Assembly (NCBI GenBank): GCA_009781005.1
Contig: WQYX01000005.1
Span: forward strand, 1 to 64,000
Source of the DNA: Polyangiaceae bacterium
GTDB lineage: Bacteria > Myxococcota_A > Polyangia > Polyangiales > Polyangiaceae
Direction: 5' to 3'
DNA: 64,000 nt
The notes under the pieces are model-generated. The model had not been told where the DNA came from. It saw only the letters and a list, made by a program, of their open reading frames with translations, and made no database searches. Numbering within the stretch: the first letter of the stretch is position 1; each line of letters starts with the position of its first letter. Positions 23,688 to 58,778 of the stretch are shown in pieces. Both the position numbers and the translations under genes were made by a program.

Positions 23688-23700
23688 GGGACAGAGCTTA

Positions 23701-23843
23701 GAGCGTGTTTACCAGCCGTTGCGAGCGAATCGAGGCTAGGGCGGAGCGCGAGGAGCCCGCGTAAACGTACTTGGCGTACGTGCGCAGGCACCGCAGCGCC
23801 CAACCGACGTATCGATTTGCGCAGCAGGCTGGTAAACACGCTC
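23701..23843. mobile_element. MITE-like element A, copy 1 (143 bp)
   Basis: The element has 17-bp perfect inverted ends (GAGCGTGTTTACCAGCC and its complement) and a central palindrome around ACGTAC at 23765-23781. It is flanked on both sides by TTA (23698-23700 and 23844-23846), a 3-bp target duplication of the TNA type. The right TTA is the stop codon (TAA) of the gene at 23844-24251. It contains no transposase, so it must have moved by an enzyme encoded elsewhere. TNA duplications are known for the IS1031 group of the IS5 family; assignment to it is an inference. Confidence 0.85.
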
Positions 23844-24251
23844 TTACTCCTCTGGAGGCTTGGGCATCTGTCCGGTCGCCCTGTGAACGAGATCGACGAG
23901 CTCTGGGTCGGTCATCATCTGATCGCGCAGCACGCTCTTGATGTCTTCGAGCTTGCTTGGCGACAGTCCTTTGAGTCTCGATGTGGCCTGATCGATCTTG
24001 AGATCGACGTAGCCATTCACGTCGATCTCGCCCGCGCGCAACCGCGCAAGGGGCGAGGCTGTGTCGGCTGCGCCGACGCCACCGGCGTGCTCCGTGCCCG
24101 CGGTCTTATCCGTCGCCTGCGCGCCGGTCGCGTCGCCGCGTTCGACATGGAACGCCTTCGACGGAGCGTGGGTCGAGCCGACCGCACCTGTCCCCTGCAT
24201 GTCGGGGGTTGGGGGCAAACCCCCGCTTTTTCCAATACCGTCGATGCCCAT
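23844..24251 (-). CDS. Small helical protein of unknown function
   Basis: This 135-aa protein has a flexible Gly/Ala/Thr-rich N-terminal half and a helical C-terminal half (PLARLRAGEIDVNGYVDLKI then SKLEDIKSVLRDQMMTDPEL). The pattern of two amphipathic helices after a disordered arm is like small regulatory or secretion-linked proteins of myxobacteria, but I cannot name the family. A good ribosome-binding site, AGGAGA, precedes the ATG at 24251. Its TAA stop is the target duplication of element A. Confidence 0.6.
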   Translation of the reverse strand: MGIDGIGKSGGLPPTPDMQGTGAVGSTHAPSKAFHVERGDATGAQATDKTAGTEHAGGVGAADTASPLARLRAGEIDVNGYVDLKIDQATSRLKGLSPSKLEDIKSVLRDQMMTDPELVDLVHRATGQMPKPPEE

Positions 24252-28713: not shown

Positions 28714-28754
28714 CGGAACCCATCATATCGAAGGATAGGATGAGAGTGACGTCA

Positions 28755-29062
28755 GAGCGTGTTTACCAGCCGTTGCGAGCGAATCGAGGCTAGGGCCTGT
28801 CCCTGAATTCGACTCCACGTCGGCGGACTCGGCGGGTTTTGGCGGTCTTCATCGTTGCTCGTCGTCGACGTACTCCAGTACGTCTCCTCCTCGCGCCTCG
28901 AATCCCGCGCAAAACGCGCTCTCTCCTCCTCGGTCCGGAATTCAGGGACAGGCCCTAGGGCGGAGCGCGAGGAGCCCGCGTAAACGTACTTGTCGTACGT
29001 GCGCAGGCACCGCAGCGCCCAACCGACGTATCGATTTGCGCAGCAGGCTGGTAAACACGCTC
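28755..29062. mobile_element. MITE-like element A, copy 2, interrupted by element B
   Basis: The ends are the same 17-bp inverted repeats as copy 1. The element is flanked by TCA on both sides (28752-28754 and 29063-29065), and the right TCA is the complement of the recA stop codon TGA. Removing element B and one TA leaves 143 bp, the exact length of copy 1. So element A inserted first at the recA stop codon and element B inserted later into it. Confidence 0.88.
28793..28955. mobile_element. MITE-like element B, copy 1 (163 bp), nested in element A
   Basis: The inverted ends are GGGCCTGTCCCTGAATTC (18 bp, perfect). The element is flanked by TA at 28791-28792 and 28956-28957, while the uninterrupted copy of element A has a single TA at that point. 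A 2-bp TA duplication is typical of IS630/Tc1-mariner transposition, and is also known in part of the IS5 family. A second copy lies at 58618-58778. It has no coding capacity. Confidence 0.88.
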
Positions 29063-30229
<1,167 letters not shown>

Positions 30230-58617: not shown

Positions 58618-58778
58618 CGGGCCTGTCCCTGAATTCCTCCGCGTCGGCGGACTCGGCGGGTTTTGGCGGTCTTCGTCGTTGCTCGTCGTCGACGTACTTC
58701 AGTACGCTCCTCCTCGCGCCTCGAATCCCGCTCAAAACGCGCCCTCGCCGCCTCGGTCCGGAATCCAGGGACAGGCCC
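58618..58778. mobile_element. MITE-like element B, copy 2 (161 bp)
   Basis: The sequence matches element B copy 1 over its whole length, with ends GGGCCTGTCCCTGAATTC and GAATCCAGGGACAGGCCC. The right end carries one mismatch in the inverted repeat. No TA duplication is visible at the flanks, so it is older or has been altered. It lies just after the stop codon of the basic-protein gene. Confidence 0.8.

Follow-up and report, generated by a model that had tools for sequence, protein, structure and literature searches.

The window, that is, the whole 64,000-nucleotide stretch analysed here, contains two copies only of a short repeat, element A, each of which abuts the 3' end of a gene. Copy 1 (23701-23843, no strand assigned) is a quasi-palindromic sequence of 143 bp with inverted ends GAGCGTGTTTACCAGCC, and is bordered by a duplicated TTA triplet, the left one at 23698-23700 and the right one at 23844-23846, where, on the minus strand, it is the TAA stop of a 135-aa ORF (23844-24251, minus strand) without a Pfam family; the orthologue in the congener G009 has a similar end point and an empty site. 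Copy 2 (28755-29062, no strand assigned) lies between a left TCA (28752-28754) and a right TCA (29063-29065), the latter being the TGA stop of recA (29063-30229, minus strand, 388 aa), and the protein's last residues, KPAN, also stand before the stop in most of the 12 congeneric genomes that gave a RecA match, the present one included. Among named records, the best counterpart of this RecA belongs to a Polyangiaceae MAG (69% identity), which makes a myxobacterium-like host likely. Copy 2 is longer (308 bp) because a second repeat of approximately 160 bp, element B (28794-28954, ends GGCCTGTCCCTGAATTC), is nested inside it and flanked by a CTAG duplication of its own (28790-28793 and 28955-28958, the whole spanning 28790-28958); with this nested repeat excluded, the two copies are 100% identical in a segment of 43 bp and 99% identical in one of 109 bp. 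The other copy of element B in the window (58620-58777) is freestanding and has unequal flanks, and when element B was tried as a selection control, the sample proved too thin, with four end pairs, of which two had CTAG on either side. A search of the window against Rfam returned zero families at the gathering score. These coordinates confirm the preliminary description, in which both copies carried a TNA duplication whose right triplet was the stop codon of a minus-strand gene. The accompanying statement that stop codons read on the complementary strand (TTA, TCA, or CTA) all suit a TNA-targeting element holds for TTA and TCA, but CTA, the complement of TAG, is no TNA triplet, and exact hits are therefore possible only at TAA and TGA stops.

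Element A is abundant in the host genome (4.77 Mb in 199 contigs), where a 30-base core pattern allowing up to three mismatches gave 165 matches, against 0 for the reversed control, and where the strict two-ended consensus occurs intact at 58 places. Stretches around 150 located core copies and 46 lone ends, 0.85 Mb in all, were fetched and contained 217 BLAST clusters, 131 of them with both ends present; after the 86 clusters lacking one or both ends and the 24 two-ended copies without TNA on both sides were dropped, 107 insertions at 105 sites were kept. Of the 131 two-ended copies, 105 measure 142-144 bp (10 of 142 bp, 65 of 143 bp, and 30 of 144 bp). The 3-bp flanks are equal in 98 of these 131 copies and are TNA in 97 of the 98, with the four triplets nearly even (TAA 27, TCA 24, TTA 23, and TGA 23). 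A preceding C in 76/98 and a following G in 63/98 of the equal-flank copies give the consensus CTNAG, and A or T is favoured at the middle base relative to the local background. Ten two-ended copies have a TNA on each side with a different middle base, as ectopic recombination between copies would yield, and four others (in L052, L054, L097, and L102) combine a left TTA with a right TTC or TTG. At L062 2775-3108 and L076 2729-3017, paired adjacent copies are separated by a single triplet, one element having inserted at the triplet beside an existing copy.

The inverted ends of element A follow GAGC[GA]TGTnnnnCAGCC, reading GAGC[GA]TGT-nnnn-CAGCC, in which nnnn is TTAC, AGGG, TCGA, TCGC, or TCTA. 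The two ends of one copy differ in this tetranucleotide in 57 of 90 copies, a mixing that looks as if recombination or several related transposases had been involved. Pieces of IS5-family transposase genes (NCBIfam NF033580 transpos_IS5_3; Pfam PF13340 and PF01609) were found near GAGCATGTTTACCAGGA and GAGCGTGTTCGACAGCA ends, which belong to the TTAC and TCGA types, and these ends equal those of element A of the same type for the first 15-16 bp, any mismatch being confined to the last one or two of 17 bases. A 3-bp TNA duplication fits some subgroups of the IS5 family. Unlike an IS of this family, element A has 143 bp and no transposase gene, for which it is too short. No intact autonomous IS5-type copy was seen; those encountered were fragments, most of them at contig edges, and one copy with an internal deletion. 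At L192 3-518 an IS5 transposase gene, apparently internally deleted, lies close to a TCGA-type end. A 1068-bp end pair in L119 was considered as an autonomous IS and discarded, its ORFs looking by eye like ordinary host proteins. Element A is thus short, non-coding, and bounded by terminal inverted repeats, is dispersed at high copy number, and duplicates its target, as attested by the TNA flanks and by six empty orthologous sites. Since IS5-family transposase pieces accompany TTAC-type and TCGA-type ends that are nearly identical to its own, we classify it as a non-autonomous IS5-type MITE.

The preliminary description further held that element A inserts exactly at stop codons, a claim that can be weighed by counting stop-touching copies against the number expected from intergenic TNA sites. 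Genes were called with a hexamer script trained on the present genome in place of a standard annotator, the flanks of the 107 two-ended copies were joined (the left flank being taken as the empty site in the ten with TNA differing in the middle base), and the background comprised all TNA sites of these stretches, weighted by C/G context. In a first classification, 43 of the 107 insertions fell exactly on a stop, 42 were intergenic, 14 internal to genes, six partly over a stop, and two at a start; when each site was counted once and overlaps were treated by a second rule, stops accounted for 45/105, and whether 14 or 19 insertions are counted as internal depends on the overlapping-gene rule. 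With the window copies left out, stops were hit at 43/103 sites and, outside genes, at 43/84 against 16.2 expected (P ~6e-11), a 2.7-fold excess in which the flank context is already included; restriction of this set to equal flanks gave 39/75 against 14.3 expected. The odds ratio of stops versus other intergenic sites was 6.6 (z 7.1) with a target matrix built from the 60 non-stop insertions only. The regressions presented here and below are conditional rather than experimental evidence, and all P values are raw, several tests having been run. Exact stop hits are about two to three times as frequent as the target sequence predicts, and the contrary result, zero stop excess over random intergenic TNA sites, is not what the count gave. 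The excess at stops therefore stands, but the word "exactly" does not, as 60 of the 105 sites are not stops and the enrichment reaches 30 bp downstream.

The position of the remaining insertions indicates what this excess consists of. Sites 1-30 bp past a stop received 17 insertions against 8.5 expected, and the rest of the non-genic sites 24 against 61. A position-class model gave an odds ratio of 2.1 for the stop versus 1-30 bp downstream (z 2.1 with a fixed matrix; z 1.9 in an earlier model), 0.30 for sites further out (z -3.1), 0.24 for divergent regions (z -2.9), and 2.3 for convergent ones (z 2.7). A simple test of the stop versus 1-30 bp gave P 0.17, and under strict filters (56 insertions, repeat-borne background sites being masked only where insertion-free) stops were favoured 1.6-fold over near sites (P 0.11) and 4.1-fold over far ones (P 1.5e-5). 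Gene-internal sites are those most strongly avoided, with 19 insertions observed and 292 expected, an approximately 15-fold deficit. Divergent regions hold eight insertions against 17 expected, and stops of convergent genes 21 against 5.3; in convergent intergenic regions, 29 insertions lie within 30 bp of a stop and two further away, the expected numbers being 7.6 and 4.8 (P 5.5e-5), although the contrast of convergent stop and far sites weakens to P 0.057 under the strict filters. Because the 1-30 bp sites are enriched too, whereas insertions are scarcer than expected in divergent regions and at more distant sites, the stop bias is mostly a gene-3'-end effect, and the stop-specific excess, about twofold, is borderline.

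Comparison with G009 bears on both the consequences and the history of these insertions. In all seven alignable stop-class genes the G009 protein has approximately the same end point (within about two residues in six of them), in agreement with the earlier proposal that insertion leaves the protein intact, and the orthologous site in G009 is empty in six of the seven, the exception being recA. The recA tail of G009 is slightly longer and different, and the element A copy there (L253 2725-2875) lies three bases past the stop, with a TGA flanking its other side, immediately at the beginning of the following gene. It belongs to a divergent subfamily, with 0.77 identity to the recA copy described here and at most 0.90 to the other element A copies of the present genome, and by eye its orientation is opposite to that of the recA copy here. 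This points to what would be two separate insertions at the recA stop in two species, a single case in which the flanks show no clean duplication. Stops were also hit in 6/11 of the equal-TNA copies of G009, and in 4/7 end pairs from seven contigs picked irrespective of element A, one of these four pairs having unequal flanks and another being also among the 11.

We consider that selection acting on a CTNAG-targeting IS5-family MITE probably explains most of the stop overlap, and we rank this reading before active targeting of gene ends. The IS5-type transposases with almost equal ends, whose association with element A is observed, most likely move it in trans, and element A inserts at CTNAG, with A or T favoured in the middle of the site, and duplicates TNA, as its flanks show. 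TNA covers TAA, TGA, and their complements, and each such stop is therefore a candidate target by definition. Selection may then purge most gene-internal and promoter-side insertions, whose depletion is observed, and the survivors collect at gene 3' ends, the stop codon being the suitable site most often available there; an insertion at that site duplicates the stop and leaves the protein unchanged, and the long hairpin is the body of a palindromic MITE. The excess at stops would thus arise mainly because copies collect at harmless gene ends. The gene-internal depletion, which is weaker in recent copies (10/45 inside genes, against 3/45 of the older ones; P 0.07), is consistent with selective removal, as is the depletion in divergent regions. 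Nevertheless, selection alone does not account for everything. The stop fraction does not rise with age (18/45 in younger copies and 15/45 in older ones), a result that would not be expected from plain selection acting over time, although these numbers for age and position are small and every observed copy is a survivor of selection. In addition, convergent insertions hug stops even though no promoter should need protecting there, the stop-specific odds ratio of 2.1 (z 2.1, fixed matrix) persists, and the recA stop was hit in two genomes by different subfamilies.

These same observations, namely, the 3' clustering inside convergent regions, the stop-specific odds ratio, the flat age profile, and the independent insertions of oppositely oriented members of different subfamilies at the recA stop of two species, would be accommodated by an IS5-type transposase drawn to gene 3' ends, for instance by the stop of transcription or by exposed or supercoiled DNA; stops would then be hit on account of their location, in addition to the loss of insertions elsewhere. 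However, the convergent signal becomes weak once strictly filtered, the difference between the stop and the 1-30 bp downstream is non-significant in both simple tests, all visible copies have already passed through selection, and recA is a single case that was found because it was sought, so that we regard such targeting as unlikely. We are equally doubtful that the stop is a favoured landing point since CTNAG holds the stop triplet, the transposon in effect reading gene ends. If targeting were active, it would allow an element to spread harmlessly through a dense bacterial genome, with more than 100 copies accommodated almost without damage, and the recA stop hit independently by two subfamilies in two species would point that way. 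If, on the other hand, selection alone is at work, the case shows that an element need not recognise a functional signal in order to coincide with it exactly.

A far less probable explanation, in our opinion, is that element A has been domesticated as a 3' element, its hairpin being kept for the protection of mRNA 3' ends, for stopping transcription, or for separating convergent genes. Copy 1 does fold very strongly on either strand, at -91.1 kcal/mol (z about -10) and -87.9 kcal/mol (z about -9), and among 90 copies 98.5% of the cells belonging to 42 consensus pairs are paired, as opposed to 24-45% in slid control versions, with double changes at 10 pairs; arm-to-arm conversion, however, can maintain the pairing of a palindrome, and 57/90 copies have unlike end tetranucleotides. 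Element A is slightly asymmetric, and in the stop-class insertions it lies with the gene in 13 cases and against it in 30 of 43 (P 0.014, uncorrected), an orientation bias that would suit a role at gene ends, but the element is absent from 6/7 of the orthologous genes in G009. The suggestion in the preliminary description that the fold could act as a terminator is likewise not supported, since no terminator-like site was found at either window copy and a T-rich tail follows only 1/46 of the stop-class copies in the genome. An intrinsic terminator was accordingly rejected, the stem having no T-rich tail at the window copies. That the two window copies touched stops by luck, a thought which owes its appeal to the window having two copies only, is scarcely credible, already refuted as it is by the 43/84 non-genic insertions against 16.2 expected with those two copies left out, and the pattern is repeated in G009.

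Element A offers a large and countable natural collection of transposon insertions whose target triplet doubles as a translation signal, and which lets target choice, selection, and gene-end preference be separated. Among the open-licence papers listed in our searches, none reported a count of MITE or IS insertions at stop codons tested against a target null. The general traits described for bacterial MITEs are that they are short and non-coding, have terminal inverted repeats and target duplications, produce transcripts with strong stem-loops, and are mainly intergenic (PMC10969869). Element A has the same general traits, but bacterial MITEs are typically AT-rich according to that text (PMC10969869), whereas element A is G+C-rich by eye, and it differs further in that its overlap with stops has been gauged against a target-site null.

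Accumulation at gene 3' ends has precedents. QMITE2 of Coxiella burnetii is found mainly in 3' untranslated regions (PMC5896051, PMC10969869) and resembles element A in this 3' gene location, but has variable direct repeats of 7-9 bases (PMC10969869), and the accessible portions of the QMITE2 accounts make no mention of stop-codon duplication. For BOX of Streptococcus pneumoniae, 36/58 overlapped genes are reported to terminate within the repeat (PMC3049150), which means that the BOX repeat provides the stop, while for element A it is the target that provides the stop and the repeat contributes nothing. MIRU of mycobacteria is a mobile repeat that inserts at start codons and has a coupled ORF inside (PMC12548453); as with element A, the insertion point is a translation signal and the gene is little affected, but MIRU differs in its start-codon site, the target of element A being CTNAG. 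MITEs that gather at gene 3' ends are already known from QMITE2 and BOX, and what element A adds to them is an unusual and measurable overlap of the target triplet with the stop codon.
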